Positions 8,981-16,904 of a DNA stretch of 27,564 nt are shown in pieces. Both the position numbers and the translations under genes were made by a program. The DNA lies in IMG/VR virus record IMGVR_UViG_3300035070_002178, positions 1 through 27,564 of that record; one strand, given 5' to 3'. Below the pieces are notes generated by a model that was given only the letters and a program-made list of their open reading frames with translations, was not told where the DNA came from and did not search any database. This DNA comes from a virus. The first letter of the stretch is position 1, and every line of letters starts with the position of its first letter.

Positions 8981-9214
8981 ATGGCTAAAAGAATTACCAC
9001 CCAAGAATTACATAGTGAAATTGAGCAGATCAAAAACAATCATCTTGCCCACATGGCTGAGGACATAGATGAACTTAAAGATGCTGTTAAGGATAACAGA
9101 GAGTTCTTTCAAGACAGGTTAGATCGCCTAGACAATAGAATATTTTGGATTCTTGGGATGGTACTCAGTACATTAGTCACACTAGTAGCAACACTTGTAG
9201 GAGGTATGATATAA
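8981..9214 (+). CDS. Coiled-coil membrane protein, holin/XhlA-like candidate
   Basis: The 77-residue product has a charged heptad-like coiled coil at about residues 8-52 (EDIDELKDAVKDNREFFQDR) and one strongly hydrophobic C-terminal segment at 54-76 (FWILGMVLSTLVTLVATLVG). This matches the architecture of haemolysin XhlA-like and some holin or antiholin proteins: cytoplasmic coil with a single tail anchor. It sits between a cationic peptide gene and a further small gene. Role in lysis is inferred from architecture; an unrelated membrane scaffold is possible. Its stop overlaps the next start. Confidence 0.55.
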   Translation: MAKRITTQELHSEIEQIKNNHLAHMAEDIDELKDAVKDNREFFQDRLDRLDNRIFWILGMVLSTLVTLVATLVGGMI

Positions 9215-9531
9215 TGCCAGTACCACCTAAATCAGCACAAAACATAGCCAAAAAGGCACTGGAAATTCGCAAAGAATTACCAAAAAGCAAAAGAGCAGGA
9301 ACACCTGTAGGTGTAGCACGAGCAGGGCAACTTGCAAATGCAGACAACCTATCACTAGACACATTAAAAAGAATAAAAAGTTTCATAGCAAGACATGAAC
9401 CTAACTATAGACGAGCAGTAGCACAAGGCAAAAGCATGGCAGATGGCGGAGTTATACTAGCAATGGCGTTGTGGGGATATCCTGGAATTAAAAGTTGGGT
9501 AGATGAACAAATTAACAAATTATCAAAATAA
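9214..9531 (+). CDS. Small protein with 'LxxxTLKRIKSFIARHE ... ALWGYPGIKSW' domain
   Basis: I place the start at the ATG at 9214, overlapping the preceding stop, because AGGAGG lies about ten bases upstream; this gives 105 residues. The core reads GVARAGQLANADNLSLDTLKR, then SFIARHEPNYRRA, then GGVILAMALWGYPGIKSW. That order ('R...LAN...LSxxTxxRxxSFxARHE...ALWGxxxGxxW') is familiar from many short phage and plasmid proteins of unknown function, sometimes fused to head or protease domains. Basic and soluble, with no catalytic residues I can identify. The neighbourhood is small tail-distal genes, so no function is assigned. Confidence 0.65.
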   Translation: MPVPPKSAQNIAKKALEIRKELPKSKRAGTPVGVARAGQLANADNLSLDTLKRIKSFIARHEPNYRRAVAQGKSMADGGVILAMALWGYPGIKSWVDEQINKLSK

Positions 9532-9838
9532 ATTAATCAAACAAGCAAGTAATATCTTAGACACTTTGACAGTGAAGAACCATCTTGTATACCAGGTTAG
9601 GACGCACATAGACCGTCTGTGTGCAACGGGAGAAGGCAAAGAGGTACTAGAGCACTTTGTTCATACATATACCACTAAAAAGCCTAAATATCTGCGTGAC
9701 AGGTACTTGAAAAAATTGTATTATTACGAAAATAAGATAATTGATGCAAACATGATCAATTACGAATATTACAGCAGATGTAATAGGCACAAAGAATGGA
9801 ACAAAGTTCTAACTGTGCGATTCAATGACAAAAAGTAA
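9503..9838 (+). CDS. Unknown basic helical protein, 111 residues
   Basis: The ATG at 9503 overlaps the end of the preceding gene by 29 bases and has no clear Shine-Dalgarno, so coupling is likely. The product is Lys-, Tyr- and Asn-rich and probably all helical, with repeated aromatic patches (YLRDRYLKKLYYYENK near residue 75). No membrane segment, Cys cluster or known motif is visible. It is the last gene of the rightward tail-side transcript and ends directly against the stop codon of a leftward gene. Confidence 0.55.
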   Translation: MNKLTNYQNKLIKQASNILDTLTVKNHLVYQVRTHIDRLCATGEGKEVLEHFVHTYTTKKPKYLRDRYLKKLYYYENKIIDANMINYEYYSRCNRHKEWNKVLTVRFNDKK

Positions 9839-10255
9839 CTAAATTTCTACAAATTCAATATCAGGTGCATATATGGTTTCTGGCCATTTGTTTGCAACCA
9901 AAACACCGTTGATTTTGTCAAAAGCACCTAATAAATTTTCAATGTTTTTGATTTGATATATAGTAAAGTCTTTGTCTTTGGTCTTCTTGTGTTGTTTCAG
10001 CATACCGCATAAGATAGCATTTATACCTAAGTATTGTGCTTTTTTGTTGTATTGCCCTTTGCCAAAACACTTGAATTGCTTGGTTACAAAGGTATCTATT
10101 TCAGTGAATTCGTGTTGTGCTTCACCTATAACATATAGTGCATCTTGCAGTAAGTTAATCAACAACTGTTTGTCACCTCTGCTCATCTTACAGAATATGG
10201 TATTTATTTCAGCATTTCTTGTGCCTGATAGTTTAGAATATTTTATTTGATACAT
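9839..10255 (-). CDS. Unknown protein, lone leftward gene, 138 residues
   Basis: The protein begins MYQIKYSKLSGTRNAEINTIF and is mixed alpha/beta with no recognised motif. It is read from AAAAGGA just before its ATG, behind a minus-strand GATAAATA box 30 bases upstream. The stop codon abuts the stop of the rightward neighbour with no gap, so the two transcripts converge with no terminator between them. An orphan gene with its own promoter-like box is often a regulator or moron-like accessory gene; that is a guess. Confidence 0.6.
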   Translation of the reverse strand: MYQIKYSKLSGTRNAEINTIFCKMSRGDKQLLINLLQDALYVIGEAQHEFTEIDTFVTKQFKCFGKGQYNKKAQYLGINAILCGMLKQHKKTKDKDFTIYQIKNIENLLGAFDKINGVLVANKWPETIYAPDIEFVEI

Positions 10256-10284
10256 GTTTTTTCCTTTTAAATGTCGTACTATAG

Positions 10285-10292
10285 TATTTATC
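10285..10292 (-). promoter_or_regulatory. Late-promoter-like GATAAATA box (leftward)
   Basis: The plus strand reads TATTTATC, giving GATAAATA on the minus strand, 30 bases before the ATG of the 138-residue gene. Just upstream on the minus strand is an inverted repeat, CCCAG/CTGGG around six bases (plus 10300-10315 or so). Assigned by similarity to the other boxes in the window. Confidence 0.45.
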
Positions 10293-10401
10293 AGAATACC
10301 CCAGTATTACCTGGGATATTTTGATTACTTTACATCTAAAGTAGGCGTTAGGACAAGCCAATACTATTTAATCATGAATGCTCCTAGAAATTTATCTTTT
10401 T

Positions 10402-10409
10402 GATAAATA
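10402..10409 (+). promoter_or_regulatory. GATAAATA box inside an inverted repeat
   Basis: GATAAATA here forms the right arm of ATTTATC (10390-10396) / GATAAAT (10402-10408) around a T5 spacer. No gene starts within the next 700 bases on this strand. A strong terminator lies about 160-200 bases downstream, so the box could drive a short non-coding transcript. Confidence 0.4.
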
Positions 10410-10607
10410 ATTATTGGATAAGGAAACAAGTAGCCTTAATGTTGCCAAACATCAATTACTAATCCTTGTCTACAGTACAACTTGATTCCTTTCAAATGGT
10501 GCTGTTAAAATTAAATTCGTGGATCCGTTCAGGATCGTAATGTTTTAATTTTTCCTAAATATCGTATCAGTCCCCCTTATTACTCATCTTTTAAGGGGGA
10601 TTTTTTT
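10410..10607 (+). ncRNA. Candidate structured late ncRNA, about 190 nt
   Basis: The stretch runs from a GATAAATA box to a strong intrinsic terminator and has no ORF longer than about 14 codons. It contains a nested hairpin: AAAATTAAA (10507-10515) pairs with TTTAATTTT (10544-10552), and inside it GATCC (10522-10526) pairs with GGATC (10532-10536) around GTTCA. Promoter-like box, internal structure and terminator together suggest a small RNA. Alternatives are a 5' leader whose gene is lost or a read-through terminator for the rightward tail transcript. Confidence 0.4.
10571..10607 (+). terminator. Strong intrinsic terminator
   Basis: TCCCCCTTA (10571-10579) pairs with TAAGGGGGA (10592-10600) around a 12-base loop and is followed by seven T (10601-10607). 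This is a textbook rho-independent terminator reading rightward. On the opposite strand no T-run follows the stem. Confidence 0.88.
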
Positions 10608-10644
10608 GGTCAGATGGTAAATAAAAGTGATAAGAAAATTTAGG

Positions 10645-10677
10645 CTAATACAAAACTAATACAAAACTAATACAGAA
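10645..10677 (+). repeat. Three 11-bp direct repeats (iteron-like)
   Basis: CTAATACAAAA occurs at 10645-10655 and 10656-10666, with a third copy, CTAATACAGAA, at 10667-10677. The 11-bp period places the copies on nearly the same face of the helix. Such iterons can be replication-initiator, packaging or repressor sites; the position about 730 bases before the small terminase gene fits any of these. No function is shown. Confidence 0.7.
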
Positions 10678-10687
10678 CCCTAAAAAA

Positions 10688-10902
10688 GCACTGAGATGAC
10701 TTGACCTAAAAGGCGGTGCGGTCGAAGATAGTAACATAGCCTGAACATTGTGTTACTTAGATTGGTTAGAGGGCAGTTTCCGTACACACGGTTTGCAGTT
10801 ATACATAGTCAACCTTCTGCAATAAAACTGGTGTTCAGTAGGCATGGTATAATGTGCAGACTTCAAAAGTAGTGAGCCACAAAAGCATTTTGCTTTTTTT
10901 AT
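10688..10902 (+). ncRNA. Candidate structured RNA with weak terminator
   Basis: No convincing ORF covers this stretch. Many short helices are visible: AGTAACA (10730-10736)/TGTTACT (10751-10757); CCGT-ACAC-ACGG (10780-10791); TCTGCA (10816-10821)/TGCAGA (10855-10860) enclosing ACTG/CAGT (10827-10839); ACTT-CAA-AAGT (10860-10870). The end is AAAAGC/GCTTTT with a T-run. No clear promoter was found at the 5' end. An extended -10 (TGGTATAAT) at 10845-10853 could start a shorter RNA. The density of helices is suggestive but not proof, since short stems are common by chance. Confidence 0.3.
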
Positions 10903-11069
10903 TTGGCAGAAACTACATTTGAGGTCTCATGGTTATAACATCAAGGGGGCCAGAGACGAAGTAAAAGAATAACGAAAAAGATGAAATTAACGAAGTTAAT
11001 GATATCTTTGAAGTTATTAGGTCTTTAGACCTTTATAATACCACTGTAAGGTATAAAGGTTCAAATTAA
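10853..11069 (+). other. Possible frameshifted gene remnant with MerR-like motif
   Basis: Two overlapping open frames lack a start codon. The first (10853-10972) ends FFIWQKLHLRSHGYNIKGAR, then DEVKE and a stop. The second, shifted by +1 (10965-11069), reads NEKDEINEVNDIFEVIRS and continues to YKGSN. 'GYxIKGAR' resembles the end of the DNA-binding domain of MerR-type regulators near alphaproteobacterial ihfA genes. This could be a decayed gene or captured host DNA; it could equally be chance. The first frame also overlaps the weak terminator, which argues against a functional gene. The rest of 10903-11082 also contains palindromes (ATTAAC-GAA-GTTAAT at 10984-10998 or so; AGGTC-TTTA-GACCT near 11019-11032). 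Confidence 0.2.
10881..10900 (+). terminator. Weak intrinsic terminator
   Basis: AAAAGC (10881-10886) pairs with GCTTTT (10892-10897) around ATTTT, and the T-run extends to 10900. The stem has only two G-C pairs, so it would be inefficient alone. Confidence 0.4.
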
Positions 11070-11082
11070 GGACAACTATGAC

Positions 11083-11111
11083 TTGACTATCTGCTAGAGG
11101 TATAGTATAAT
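11083..11111 (+). promoter_or_regulatory. Sigma70-type promoter before the Cys-rich gene
   Basis: TTGACT at 11083-11088 and TATAAT at 11106-11111 are separated by exactly 17 bases. A start about seven bases after the -10 falls on or next to the ATG at 11118, so the mRNA would be leaderless. No ribosome-binding site is visible in between. Confidence 0.75.
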
Positions 11112-11117
11112 AAGCAC

Positions 11118-11356: not shown

Positions 11357-11405
11357 CTTTCTACGCACACAGTGGCGATATAACACTGAATTACAGGAGA
11401 CGCAA

Positions 11406-11867
11406 ATGTCTAATGAGTATGAAGATTTCTCAGATAGCAAACCACTAAGTGAACAAACACAAAGTGAAGGTTCAAAAACACAAGAGAAGTACACAAAAAG
11501 ATACCAAGTAAAGAACATCAAATACGGCGAAAAAACAGTTGTAGGTAGAGTTGTGGGTCGTAACAAAACAGTTATACCAGAAGAAGAGTTCTACAAGTTA
11601 GCCGCATTACACAGTAGTTGGAAAGAATTATCAGACTGGTTTAGTGTACCAGTAGGCACATTACGAGACAATTTCGCAGATTTATACGAAAAAGCCACAA
11701 CTGAGACGAAACAGAAGTTAAGACGAGCACAATTAGACCTTGCAATGAAGGGTGATCGTGTTATGCTGATATGGCTAGGTAAGAACATACTGGGTCAAGC
11801 AGAGTCACCTGTAAGCAAAGACAGTAATCAAGTTCTACCATGGACAGAAGATGAAGAAGATAAATAA
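11406..11867 (+). CDS. terS: Terminase small subunit
   Basis: The protein (153 residues) recognises phage DNA and hands it to the large subunit. An acidic, disordered N-terminus (to about residue 40) is followed by a helix-turn-helix region near 62-85 (KLAALHSSWKELSDWFSVPV, then GTLRDNF). The end carries AQLDLAMKGDRVMLIWLGKN and ILGQ, which matches the 'A..GD..M.IWLGKxxLGQ' motif common in small terminase and packaging-initiation proteins. Length is typical. GGAG lies nine bases upstream of the ATG. The last codons overlap another GATAAATA box. The assignment is strengthened by the large subunit immediately downstream. Confidence 0.82.
   Translation: MSNEYEDFSDSKPLSEQTQSEGSKTQEKYTKRYQVKNIKYGEKTVVGRVVGRNKTVIPEEEFYKLAALHSSWKELSDWFSVPVGTLRDNFADLYEKATTETKQKLRRAQLDLAMKGDRVMLIWLGKNILGQAESPVSKDSNQVLPWTEDEEDK
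11859..11866 (+). promoter_or_regulatory. GATAAATA box at the end of terS
   Basis: The octamer overlaps the terS stop codon. It would start a transcript with a roughly 185-base leader to the large terminase. Because Asp-Lys-stop codons can make this sequence by chance, it is less secure than the intergenic boxes. Confidence 0.35.
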
Positions 11868-12056
11868 TAATGCTGGGTTAGGAATAATGTATCTCCAGAG
11901 TTCCGGTTAAACTCATGGTAGTAGCACCTATTATTATTAACAATTTTATCTTAAAGGAGGAAACTGTTATTTGTGTGTTCATGTGTACTACTACCGATTC
12001 ACATAATGTAATTTAGTTATAACACTAATGCCACCTAACTCAGCACTTAATTCGAT
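11868..12056 (+). promoter_or_regulatory. Structured leader of the large terminase gene
   Basis: This 189-base gap contains GAGTT (11898-11902)/AACTC (11910-11914) with flanking CCA/TGG, and a competing long-range helix GGTAGTAG (11917-11924)/CTACTACC (11988-11995). Between its arms lies a perfect AAAGGAGG (11953-11960) with no long gene after it. From TTG at 11971 an 11-codon ORF reads MCVHVYYYRFT, its three Tyr codons lying in the right arm of the helix. The terminase start itself lacks a Shine-Dalgarno. The layout resembles an attenuator or translational switch; this is inference. Confidence 0.35.
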
Positions 12057-12060: not shown

Positions 12061-13295
12061 TATTAACAGATCCACAAAAGACCATAAGTCAAGATTCTGC
12101 ACGATTCCGTGTGGTTGTTGCAGGTAGACGATTTGGCAAAACATATCTAGCAATCAATGAACTGGCCAAATTCGCCAGATATCCCAATAGACGAGTGTTG
12201 TACATAGCAACCACATATCGTCAAGCAAAGAATGTTATACTCAATGATCTCATACAATTCCTAGCAGAAAAGAACTGGATAAAGAAGATTAATCATTCAG
12301 ATCTAGAGATTACTTTGGTTAATAATAGTGTTATAGCATTACGCAGTAGTGATAATAGAGAAGCATTGCGTGGTACTAAATGGAACTTCATAGTGTTTGA
12401 TGAGTTTGCTTCAATGGATCCAGAAACATATTATAGTGTGTTAAGACCCACATTATCCGACACTGGTGGACATGCACTCTTTATAGGCACACCATATGGT
12501 AGGAATCACTTCTGGGAGATATACAACAATGCAGGTGCACTAGATGATTGGAGCAGTCACACATACACTACACTTAATGGTGGGCAAGTACCTCCAGAAG
12601 AAATAGAAGCCGCCAAAAGAGACTTAGACGAAAGAACATTTAATCAAGAGTACAATGCCACATTTGAAGATGCTAGAGGTATTATTGCTTATGCATTCGA
12701 CAAAGAGAACATAAAGTCTGCACCAGAACTCAGCCAGAGTAATGCACTACACATAGGAATGGACTTCAACACAGACAATTTTTCTGCATGTATAATGTTA
12801 CAGAATAGAGATCATTTGCATGTTATAGATGAAATCATGCTGATGGGTGCAAGTACCAATGACATGTGCAAAGAAATACAGAGTAGATATGGACTAGGTC
12901 GCCAGATATTTGTTTATCCAGATGCAAGTGGTAATCAACGCAAGACCAGTGCAGGAGGCTTAACAGATCACCTTATACTACACAATGCCGGCTTTAAAGT
13001 ACGCACACCAAAGACTAATCCACCTGTTAAGGATGCTATTGCGGCAGTGAACAGTAGATTACGCAGTACAACAGGCGAAATAAAACTACACATAGACCCT
13101 AAATGCAGACACACTCTAGACAGCATGAACAAGTTCAGTTACAAAGAAGGCAGTCGTGTGCCAGATAAGAGTAGTGGATATGATCACATGTTTGATGCAC
13201 TTAAATATTGTGTGTGGCAACTGTTCCCACTACAACAACAAAGATTTGATGTCAAATTGCCTACAAGAAGGCAGTCAGGCTTTATGCCGAGATAA
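12057..13295 (+). CDS. terL: Terminase large subunit (packaging ATPase-nuclease)
   Basis: This motor protein (412 residues) pumps DNA into proheads and cuts it. Walker A is VVVAGRRFGKTYLA (residues 19-32, Lys28). Walker B is FIVFDEF (111-117) with catalytic Glu116. A coupling motif FIGTP follows at about 142. The RNase H-like nuclease shows acidic residues at Asp236 (GMDFN), Asp289 (YPDAS) and Asp377/Asp380 (GYDHMFDALKY). All core elements are intact and length is normal though on the short side. An upstream in-frame stop (TAA at 12048-12050) forces the start at this ATG, which has no Shine-Dalgarno. Confidence 0.95.
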   Translation: MILTDPQKTISQDSARFRVVVAGRRFGKTYLAINELAKFARYPNRRVLYIATTYRQAKNVILNDLIQFLAEKNWIKKINHSDLEITLVNNSVIALRSSDNREALRGTKWNFIVFDEFASMDPETYYSVLRPTLSDTGGHALFIGTPYGRNHFWEIYNNAGALDDWSSHTYTTLNGGQVPPEEIEAAKRDLDERTFNQEYNATFEDARGIIAYAFDKENIKSAPELSQSNALHIGMDFNTDNFSACIMLQNRDHLHVIDEIMLMGASTNDMCKEIQSRYGLGRQIFVYPDASGNQRKTSAGGLTDHLILHNAGFKVRTPKTNPPVKDAIAAVNSRLRSTTGEIKLHIDPKCRHTLDSMNKFSYKEGSRVPDKSSGYDHMFDALKYCVWQLFPLQQQRFDVKLPTRRQSGFMPR

Positions 13296-13298
13296 ATA
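13291..13298 (+). promoter_or_regulatory. GATAAATA box at the end of terL
   Basis: The octamer overlaps the terL stop and ends seven bases before the next ATG. If used as a T4-type late promoter, the transcript would start at or next to that ATG and be leaderless, which fits the absence of a ribosome-binding site there. Confidence 0.4.
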
Positions 13299-13305
13299 AT
13301 AGCAT

Positions 13306-13524
13306 ATGGCATTTACAGGAAAAACCCCAGAAAAAGGCTCAGCACAATGGAAGAAGAATGAAAAGATCATTGCCAAGAATCCATTCTTAAGAGGTGAACG
13401 AGACAAAAGTGAAGGCTTCAAACCCACTAGTGGTATTGTGAGTGCAGACAACAGTCAAGAATACAAAGATGGTTGGGATAGAATATGGGGCAACAAAAAC
13501 AAAGACAAAGATGAATCAAAATAA
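13306..13524 (+). CDS. Unknown hydrophilic protein, 72 residues
   Basis: The product starts MAFTGKTPEKGSAQWKKNEK and is rich in Lys, Asn, Asp and Gly, probably largely disordered. It contains PFLRGERDKSEGFKPTSG near the middle and a charged tail. There is no Shine-Dalgarno; a GATAAATA box lies seven bases upstream. The end overlaps the next gene by 14 bases. No family recognised. Genes in this spot after terL are usually minor head or packaging accessories, but nothing here proves that. Confidence 0.55.
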   Translation: MAFTGKTPEKGSAQWKKNEKIIAKNPFLRGERDKSEGFKPTSGIVSADNSQEYKDGWDRIWGNKNKDKDESK

Positions 13525-14327: not shown

Positions 14328-14475
14328 CTTTGGGTTTGATTGTGTTACGCAGTTTAGAGTGTGTGCTACGCACAGGTAATGTGGCTTCTAAGAACTTTTC
14401 ATAACCTTTAGTTAGAGGCTTAGGCACCACATTGTTGTTTATAATTGCATACTTCCTAGGCTTTTTTGTTCTCAT
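14317..14475 (-). CDS. Small basic protein, 52 residues
   Basis: The gene fills the gap after the epimerase and was identified by hand: AAGGA lies before the ATG, which starts within the last codons of the epimerase frame. The product reads MRTKKPRKYAIINNNVVPKP and ends in KLRNTIKPKDET. It is strongly basic at both ends, without Cys or membrane segment. Overlaps of 20 bases upstream and 11 bases downstream fit a coupled operon. Function unknown. Confidence 0.55.
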   Translation of the reverse strand: MRTKKPRKYAIINNNVVPKPLTKGYEKFLEATLPVRSTHSKLRNTIKPKDET

Positions 14476-15370
14476 TTAACAGTTCCTTGAACCAGTCTAT
14501 GGTTATTTGCATGCCTTTGTCTACTGGCATAAGGCTGGCTTCTGTCATGTCGACATGTTTAAGTGTATTTATATCAGCACTCACTGTTGCTCCTGGTATT
14601 TCACCTGGACGCATAGGTAAGTTTACAACTTTACTACTACTGCCTGTTAAATGTATGATCAAATGTGCTACTTCTTGTACTGTTTTATTGTGTTTAGGGC
14701 CTACTTCTACTGCTTCTGGGAAAACTATGTCTTGTGCGGCTTTTTCTGTGGCAACTACTAGTGCATGTGCTACATCACCTACCCAACACATATCAGATAT
14801 CTGTTTACCATCACCGTATACTTCTATGTCCATGTTCTCTAATGCTCTACACACAAAACTAGGTGTAATCTTACGCACTTTACTATCACCCCATGGTGGT
14901 ACTGGCCTTTGTCTAGGACCATATGCATTCATGGCTCTCACTATGTTTACCCGTGTGCCATGTTCTCGATTATACATGTCTACAAATCTTTCTATCATTG
15001 TTTTGGTAATACTGTAAGGATTGTTCATCCAATGGTTACCTACACCAATGTATGTGCCTGGCAAGTTGTATTGTTTTGCGGCGGCTAACATGTTAAGTCC
15101 ACCCATCAAGTTAGAATGTGCGGCAGGTCTTGGGTTATCAATTGTTTCTTGTGTGCCTAATACTGCGGCTAAGTGTATCCAAGCATCAGCATGTGCCATT
15201 GCTTCTGTGACTGCTACTTCATCACGCACATCGCCTAGTATAACAGGGCAAGGGTATTCTTCTTGTCTGTTATAATGGTCAAATATGATTGGTGAGTGTC
15301 CTCTTTTTATACATTCTTCTACTACATAGGAGCCTATAAAACCTGCTCCACCTGTTATTAATATCTTCAT
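14456..15370 (-). CDS. NAD-dependent epimerase/dehydratase (extended SDR)
   Basis: The chosen start (MKILITGGAGFIG) follows AGGAG and begins directly with the Rossmann glycine motif GGAGFIG (residues 7-13); an earlier ATG at 15406 would add a nonsense extension. Asp31 at the end of strand two favours NAD. The catalytic YxxxK is present as Tyr119-Lys123 (NPYSITK). Length (304) fits sugar-nucleotide 4-epimerases or dehydratases. The normal Ser/Thr-rich 'SSxxVYG' strand before the Tyr is replaced by YIGVGNHWMNN, so the usual third catalytic residue is not evident. It probably supplies a nucleotide sugar to the adjacent glycosyltransferases. Confidence 0.82.
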   Translation of the reverse strand: MKILITGGAGFIGSYVVEECIKRGHSPIIFDHYNRQEEYPCPVILGDVRDEVAVTEAMAHADAWIHLAAVLGTQETIDNPRPAAHSNLMGGLNMLAAAKQYNLPGTYIGVGNHWMNNPYSITKTMIERFVDMYNREHGTRVNIVRAMNAYGPRQRPVPPWGDSKVRKITPSFVCRALENMDIEVYGDGKQISDMCWVGDVAHALVVATEKAAQDIVFPEAVEVGPKHNKTVQEVAHLIIHLTGSSSKVVNLPMRPGEIPGATVSADINTLKHVDMTEASLMPVDKGMQITIDWFKELLNENKKA

Positions 15371-15381
15371 TTTTTCTCCTA

Positions 15382-16227
15382 TTACATTTGTTTGCGTCTG
15401 TCCCATGGATTATCACTACTGCGTTCTTGCGGCAATGCCATGGTTAGTTTATTAATTTTGTCTATATCTTTGTCATAATATGCATACCATAAATCTTTGT
15501 AGTTTACATGATTTCTATCGAATGCATGTTCTGGTATAGGCCATGGTTTAGGTCCTGCAAAATGAGCAATGATATCTCTTGTGGTTAGTTCACCATAGTA
15601 TGTTAAGTTTTGATACTCTGGTGGCAAGTATTGAAAATGTCCTGCATGTGCATAACTCATAACACTTTCTACATTCACATTAAACTTTTGCGGTATTTTG
15701 CCTGCTTCATAGTCACGCATAATTTGAAATATTTCTTCTGTGGTGTTATTGTATCTCCACTTGTCACAATCTACCATAAATGTGCCTGAAGCCATATCAT
15801 CATGCATGTGTCCACCAACCCAACCTATGTGTGGTCTATACACACATGCTGTTCTGTGATTGTCCATGCTGGCTTCAAATAACTGACTGAAGTCTTGTAA
15901 TACCAAGCAGTCTACATCTACATAAAATGCTCTACCTGTAAAGTATCTAGGTATAAGCAATCTAGCATACATATCCGGGCCTAGTTTTAAATTGTGGCGG
16001 AAAGACTTTCCTGAATCTACTATAACACCTTCCATGGGTGCTTCTTTGATATAGTCTATACCTTCTGGCAATTTAAAATCATCATCTTTGCCTTGTCCAT
16101 ACCAAAAGCAAGTTAGTTTAGCACTAGGAAAGTTTATATCTAGACTGTGTTTTAGTGCAACTAAGCCTGGTAAGTATTGTGGTGTACAACTGGTTACAAT
16201 GTTGTATTCCAATGAGTTTTCATCCAT
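15382..16227 (-). CDS. Glycosyltransferase, GT8-like
   Basis: The 281-residue protein shows a GT-A fold signature: an N-terminal beta strand (YNIVTSC), a DxD metal/nucleotide site at Asp104-Asp106 (FYVDVDCLV), and a late HFAGPKPW (222-229) corresponding to the glycogenin-type 'HFxGxxKPW' motif. AAGGAG precedes its ATG. It would transfer a sugar from a nucleotide donor to an unknown acceptor, perhaps a virion protein, host glycan or phage DNA. It overlaps the upstream glycosyltransferase by 34 bases and lies 11 bases before the epimerase. Confidence 0.85.
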   Translation of the reverse strand: MDENSLEYNIVTSCTPQYLPGLVALKHSLDINFPSAKLTCFWYGQGKDDDFKLPEGIDYIKEAPMEGVIVDSGKSFRHNLKLGPDMYARLLIPRYFTGRAFYVDVDCLVLQDFSQLFEASMDNHRTACVYRPHIGWVGGHMHDDMASGTFMVDCDKWRYNNTTEEIFQIMRDYEAGKIPQKFNVNVESVMSYAHAGHFQYLPPEYQNLTYYGELTTRDIIAHFAGPKPWPIPEHAFDRNHVNYKDLWYAYYDKDIDKINKLTMALPQERSSDNPWDRRKQM

Positions 16228-16904
16228 TTTGTCTCCTTAACTTCATGTGGCATTGGCTTTCCATGAAAGAATACCATTTTTATATTATTATCTAATTGCT
16301 CTATTGTGTGCAATTTATTTACTTTATAACTAACGCAAGAGCCTGGAAATTCTGTTTGCAGTCTTACCACAGGAGGTGCGTCTTTGATTTGAGGCACAGG
16401 GTTTTGGTTTATTCTAACCACACCCATACACTCTTCTAAAAATTGATTAGTACCACCCCATTGTGTGTAATCACAATCTAAGTTAGGGTAGTCTGAGGGT
16501 TGATACTTGGTTGTGAAGTATTCCCATACATTATCTCTTGTTTGCTTATCCCACATAATCCATGCTGTTTGCAATCCTGCAGGCCAACCAAAGTCCGATA
16601 TAGTGGCAAATGGTACATCTTGATTGAGTATATCATCTATATTGCCAGTTATTATTGTGTCTAAATCCATATACACTACTCGATCATTGTGTTCATGTTG
16701 TGGATTAGTAAGTCCTATTATGTACCACCACACAGGTAAGTCTACAAGAAAAGGTCTTGTTTCACATTCTATGCCTTGTGGTCTGTCTGTGTAACATATG
16801 AATCTGTGTTCAACAGTGGTATTTCTTTTTACACTATGGTATAAATTGTTTACATATTCAGGATCAAACTTAGGACCCCAACTAAAGCATACTATGTCTA
16901 TCAC
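16194..16904 (-). CDS. Glycosyltransferase with DxD motif
   Basis: The start is GTG, overlapping the preceding TGA stop as GTGA, with AAAGGAG nine bases upstream. The protein (236 residues) opens with strand DIVCFSWG, has a donor-site DxD at Asp80-Asp82 (VVYMDLDTIITG), and a C-terminal VFFHGKPMPHE that plays the role of the GT8 'HFxGxxKPW' segment. It seems a diverged relative of the neighbouring GT8-like enzyme, so the two may act in sequence on one glycan. Acceptor unknown. Confidence 0.78.
   Translation of the reverse strand: MIDIVCFSWGPKFDPEYVNNLYHSVKRNTTVEHRFICYTDRPQGIECETRPFLVDLPVWWYIIGLTNPQHEHNDRVVYMDLDTIITGNIDDILNQDVPFATISDFGWPAGLQTAWIMWDKQTRDNVWEYFTTKYQPSDYPNLDCDYTQWGGTNQFLEECMGVVRINQNPVPQIKDAPPVVRLQTEFPGSCVSYKVNKLHTIEQLDNNIKMVFFHGKPMPHEVKETKWMKTHWNTTL

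Follow-up and report, generated by a model that had tools for sequence, protein, structure and literature searches.

The analyzed DNA, a virus record of 27,564 bases (referred to as the window, i.e. the entire stretch), contains between its lysis and packaging genes a non-coding unit that begins at a GATAAATA box, continues through a folded gene-free stretch and ends at an intrinsic terminator. These three elements were confirmed to constitute one unit that stands above chance, and its character as a conserved, structured and non-coding box-to-terminator arrangement is well supported. Computation supports the unit and its fold, its conservation, the compensatory changes in its homologues and its membership of a wider class, and it is very probable that the gene-free RNA unit is real. 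The box, gene-free bases, nested hairpin and terminator listed in the original prediction are all present, the box (10402-10409, plus strand) just before the start given there.

The window encodes terminase, portal, major head and tail proteins. Among its closest cultured relatives, judged by the large terminase, are the pelagiphages HTVC111P, HTVC202P, HTVC026P and HTVC112P (41-45% identity), and no near DNA match to the window was found among cultured phages. A search of a genome collection with a TerS alignment gave only two weak matches, in bacterial contigs, and no host was found. On one side of the unit lie a tail/lysis block, with a holin-like gene at 8981 (a weak XhlA-like match), and the divergent gene p9839m (9839-10255, minus strand, taken from the ORF list), the predicted main pairing partner, which has its own GATAAATA box at 10285-10292 on the minus strand according to the motif search. 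On the other side are the terminase genes, at 11406 (assigned by position) and 12057. A minus-strand block between the packaging and portal genes (14456-16904) carries nucleotide-sugar epimerase and glycosyltransferase-like genes, placed by ORF.

No ORF of at least 50 aa occurs on either strand of the region 10256-11117. Very short ATG frames exist there, none of them conserved when the alignment was inspected by eye, and a coding reading of the unit was rejected. Downstream of the box the elements follow on the plus strand in the order P1, P2, P3, linker and terminator. The P1 domain (10416-10471) comprises a 9-bp outer stem (10416-10424 pairing with 10463-10471) and an inner hairpin with a GUUGCCA loop; like the P2 hairpin (10472-10505), it was recognized from the fold. 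P3 (10507-10552), distinguished in both the sequence and the fold, is the nested hairpin of the original prediction, whose picture of the unit was correct in this respect but incomplete, since P1 and P2 precede the hairpin. Its outer arms are AAAATTAAA (10507-10515) and TTTAATTTT (10544-10552), and its inner arms GATCC (10522-10526) and GGATC (10532-10536). A conserved unpaired linker, UUCCUAAAUAUCGUAUCA (10553-10570), which is a possible antisense segment, leads to the terminator (10571-10607), whose sequence includes a conserved ACUCAUC loop and is kept in relatives. The strong terminator that had been claimed consists of a stem at 10571-10600 (arms TCCCCCTT, 10571-10578, and AAGGGGGA, 10593-10600) followed by seven T residues at 10601-10607. 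A consensus terminator scan missed it, because the loop has 14 nt and the scan allows 3-8.

The region 10410-10613 folds at -55.1 kcal/mol, compared with -34.6 ± 3.9 kcal/mol for 200 shuffled sequences (z -5.25), none of which folded as well. Scores for 140 nt of the unit without the terminator and for the P1 domain alone were z -4.75 and z -3.70, respectively. The minus strand folds too (z -4.02), because stems must. Screening of the window against Rfam gave no match of any family at the gathering score and nothing real with a lax E-value. A riboswitch or attenuator was considered and rejected, as no alternative pairing for the terminator was visible by eye.

The unit is followed by a second gene-free block (10616-11117), which is nearly invariant over long stretches in the related loci L016 and L002, and in which neither an ORF nor an Rfam match was found. 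Strongly conserved positions 10640-10935 were considered as a second structured RNA and discarded, since they show no fold signal (z -0.60 and -0.05). A sigma70-like promoter, TTGACT-17-TATAAT, is located at 11083-11111, before a 75-aa ORF. The 5′ leader of the putative small terminase gene (11357-11405) contains a short CAGTG...CACTG hairpin with a GCGATAAA-like loop; in relatives it has other arms that are still paired, as judged by eye. This hairpin could be a protein-binding or translation-control site.

By its motif, the box of the unit is a T4-late-like promoter candidate. GATAAATA occurs eight times in the window against 1.96 expected, a number reached by none of 100 shuffles. Six of these boxes stand about 7-65 nt before an ORF (assigned by position), and the remaining two precede gene-free structured stretches. 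A logo built from 123 different boxes in related loci has T in 70% of them at +12 and G in 51% at +13, counted from the box start; C stands in 54% at each of positions -30 and -29, giving a CC element. The T-G pair places a probable start roughly 6 nt beyond the box, and the putative transcription start of the unit, 6-7 nt after its box, is at 10415-10416 (plus strand), where P1 begins. At 13291-13306, another box ends 7 nt before an ATG, and a message starting 6 nt after this box would be almost leaderless. A tblastn search with T4 gp55 against 224 records, which were mostly fragments and so make this a weak test, gave no match except T4 itself, and no sigma family appeared among the matches listed for 53 other scanned proteins. 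The question arises of how a T4-late-like box is used in phages that show no evident T4 late machinery. For pelagimyophages, attempted prediction of middle and late promoters is described as unsuccessful (PMC7029224).

Units occupy the matching place upstream of the terminase genes in L016, L002 and L004 (that of L003 is the same as that of L002), and, despite changes in sequence, these three loci retain the box, P1, linker and terminator. All nine P1 pairs are standard in the window, L016 and L002, and none is broken; three have changed on both sides and one on one side, whereas slid registers give 0-1 such pairs. The observed value was reached by 26 of 500 shuffles, because only three sequences were compared. 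L004 has a different P1, which is still paired (GAAGAGGCAC/GTGGCTCTTC). In these four loci, including the window, the P1 domains alone give z -3.4 to -4.5, and the fold signal without the terminator persists in all four. The GATCC/GGATC stem of P3 has one compensatory change (10525-10533, C-G to U-A in L016); together with the three P1 pairs, it provides the changes in homologues whose absence the original prediction had named as evidence against it, and there was no refutation on this point. The nested hairpin is present in the window, but it is not the conserved core: P3 is missing from L002, and another hairpin takes its place in L002 and L004. At the position of P2 there is a different hairpin in L016 and none in L002, and in the current alignment of L016 pairing fails at several P2/P3 cells and at three inner P1-loop pairs. 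The linker is conserved in the window, L016 and L002, with small changes in L004, L008, L010 and L018.

More distant units were found upstream of the terminase genes in L005, L008, L010, L043, L045, L047, L049 and L051, and on the minus strand in L018. They keep the box, structure and terminator, and their sequences are very different. A pattern scan of viral contigs for the box plus TTGCC returned five records, one of which (L055) has an unrelated stretch. The L008 contig (G001, 47,908 bases) contains two rounds of portal-to-tail genes, with one complete and one partial portal gene; it is a chimera, a concatemer or the DNA of two related phages.

Membership of a wider class was analyzed with 273 distinct GATAAATA boxes of the window and related loci; 124 of them, located before a Shine-Dalgarno (SD)-led ATG frame, served as controls, leaving 149 others. 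For each box, the strongest duplex that nt 2-26 downstream of it can form with nt 37-190 was compared with 200 dinucleotide shuffles. Duplexes with p ≤ 0.05 were detected for 57 of the 149 boxes versus 5 of the 124 controls, and with p ≤ 0.005 for 27 and 2, respectively. Folding of 140 nt gave a mean z of -2.36 for the 149 boxes (z ≤ -3 in 56) and -0.46 for 60 sampled controls (z ≤ -3 in none). The window's own unit is significant in the fold test but not in the duplex test (p 0.114). In 39 of the 57 significant units, the first nucleotide to pair is the fifth or sixth after the box. Non-Watson-Crick positions in the P1 arms of 42 units are more often G-U (22) than A-C (8), which favors the transcribed strand. 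The window contains a second class member (11859-12045, plus strand), composed of a box at 11859-11866 and a P1-closed stretch at 11871-12045; it has a P1 duplex p of 0.015 and a fold z of -2.25, and leads to the large terminase gene.

Several short motifs recur within the class. They were counted in 47 non-redundant units, kept of 58, a total that takes in units with p as high as 0.06 as well as the unit of the window itself: GTTGCCA is present in 13 (0.3 expected), TCTCC in 21 (5.6 expected), GGTCTCC in 7 (0.1 expected) and TCCTAAA in 11 (0.9 expected). One box each of L047 and L050 was left out of this count, as was that of L059, in a cultured pelagiphage, which is counted among the 57 and stands just before a likely gene. 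A test of matched versus swapped arms is not independent evidence, since the units were picked for strong P1 duplexes, and by its ungapped measure 25 of the 124 control boxes pass too. No shared global fold was seen in the class. A terminator-like hairpin accompanies 26 of the 57 significant boxes under a loose rule that admits some spurious cases. In relatives L038, L040, L066 and L078 an ATG directly follows P1 and no terminator was seen; some class relatives without a terminator thus look like mRNA leaders rather than small RNAs. The original prediction of a small RNA holds as regards a conserved, structured, non-coding unit, but the label misses relatives of this kind.

A more general view, which we regard as rather doubtful, is that these RNAs represent a large unrecorded class, in which uncultivated marine phages whose head and tail genes are not of T4 type would use a T4-late-like box to produce several structured, 5′-locked RNAs per genome with loops complementary to SD and start-codon sequences, together forming an RNA layer that would set late-gene translation, lysis and packaging. 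No box-started, 5′-locked RNA class was described in the literature searched, from which subscription journals were largely absent. Little is known about small RNAs of lytic phages beyond a few models. The set presented here combines a clear box resembling a promoter with conserved pairing, and the boxes in front of ordinary genes serve as its internal negative control; transcripts can therefore be sought directly in marine metatranscriptomes.

Concerning transcription, timing, stability, targets and direction of effect, we infer the following mechanism. RNA polymerase would start 6-7 nt after the GATAAATA box, read P1, P2, P3 and the linker, and stop at the terminator, yielding a stand-alone RNA of about 190 nt. 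With its 5′ end locked in P1 this RNA would be shielded from decay, and its exposed linker UUCCUAAAUAUCGUA and loops GUUGCCA and ACUCAUC could pair in trans over the ribosome-binding sites of phage messages. The first target would be the 5′ end and SD sequence of p9839m, the holin-like gene and the large terminase perhaps being further targets, and the pairing would lower or time their translation in the late phase of infection. We hold this whole explanation, a box-started small RNA with antisense action, with slightly less than even confidence, and the antisense role of the unit more tentatively.

The linker UUCCUAAAUAUCGUA can pair with the p9839m leader (UACGAUA...AGGAG), which is kept even where the gene is located elsewhere (L007, L008, L009, L011, L012 and L013). 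Among SD-led starts ranked by linker pairing, that of p9839m is the best partner in five of six phages, namely the window (1/35), L016 (1/6), L002 (1/21), L004 (1/13) and L018 (1/9), and the third in L008 (3/24), where the gene lies kilobases away; these phages are related and not independent. The large terminase start also pairs with the linker (p 0.002 to 0.023 in five loci; for L004, the start used was that of the gene following the P1-closed stretch), and the strongest pairing in L008 and L010 is to the holin-like gene. The recurrent motifs look like complements of translation-start sequences: UCUCC is complementary to GGAGA, GUUGCCA to UGGCAAC, a sequence present in the ATGGCAAC start of the major head gene, and ACUCAUC to GAUGAGU, which the p9839m start carries in L008 and L011. 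In a comparison of the best pairing to any start with that of shuffled linkers, p was 0.65 for the window, 0.33 for L002, 0.47 for L004, 0.16 for L008, 0.05 for L010 and 0.02 for L018, and only the last two beat the shuffles. Moreover, a single stretch may have given rise by divergence to both the linker and the p9839m leader, and such a shared origin could mimic pairing. Given the weak shuffle p values, the relatedness of the phages and this possible common origin, the antisense role is our best guess and not a result.

The unit might instead be a structured 5′ leader of a downstream message, exerting cis control through a leaky or regulated terminator. The ATG straight after P1 in L038, L040, L066 and L078, where no terminator was seen, and the second member of the window, which runs straight into the large terminase gene, agree with such a leader. 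However, the unit itself is followed by a strong terminator and by about 500 nt without an ORF of 50 aa, a sigma70-like promoter of its own (11083-11111) precedes the next ORF (11118), and inspection by eye revealed no upstream G-rich segment to pair with the CCCCC arm and open the terminator; a leader is thus unlikely here. A structural or packaging RNA, binding a phage protein (e.g. terminase or portal) rather than a message, would suit the preserved place just upstream of the terminase genes, and loop motifs that recur while the stems change are equally compatible with protein binding. We nevertheless consider it quite unlikely, since there is no Rfam match, units are found on the opposite strand too and a locus may contain more than one, and no shared global fold was seen.

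Packaging sites often lie near terminase genes, which are close to the unit, and the minus strand folds too; the inverted repeats might therefore merely resemble RNA stems and belong to a DNA-level site for packaging start, recombination or replication. This is very unlikely in view of the onset of pairing at the fifth or sixth nucleotide beyond the box in 39 of 57 units, the boxes before ordinary genes that have no such pairing, the predominance of G-U over A-C (22 to 8) and the T-run after the last stem on the unit's strand. It is highly improbable that the unit is a mere terminator of the upstream tail/lysis operon accompanied by unrelated repeats, with no functional RNA. It does follow the holin-like and small genes (8981-9838), where a terminator is expected, with the divergent gene in between, but the box, P1 and linker are kept while the rest diverges, and the fold signal outlasts removal of the terminator in all four homologues.

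The packaging RNA of phi29 is a structured phage RNA and is among the Rfam models. The proposed box-started small RNA is also structured and located near terminase genes, but it differs in that several units occur per contig and no global fold common to them was seen, and no match to the phi29-type family was obtained in Rfam at the gathering score or with a lax E-value. In T4, late transcription starts about 6 nt downstream of the box. The start about 6 nt downstream of the box proposed here fits this geometry, whereas the head and tail genes are not of the T4 type. According to a report on cyanophage S-PM2, its late promoter, NATAAATA, is close to that of T4, TATAAATA (PMC2984593). The core octamer pattern of these promoters is common to the box described here, and the CC element at -30/-29 is a difference. 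The report on S-PM2 also describes CfrI, an antisense RNA of about 225 nt that is expressed in infection and is antisense in cis to a homing endonuclease gene and to psbA (PMC2984593). CfrI and the RNA proposed here are both non-coding, from marine phages and of similar size, whereas the unit overlaps no gene. Trans-acting small RNAs of phages and prophages also exist, the examples quoted in the accessible part of a review being mostly from enterobacterial prophages (PMC12197685). With these the proposed RNA shares its short length, a terminator and supposed short pairing near ribosome-binding sites, but in contrast to those reviewed there it comes from uncultivated marine phages, a stem encloses its extreme 5′ end, and a locus holds several such units.
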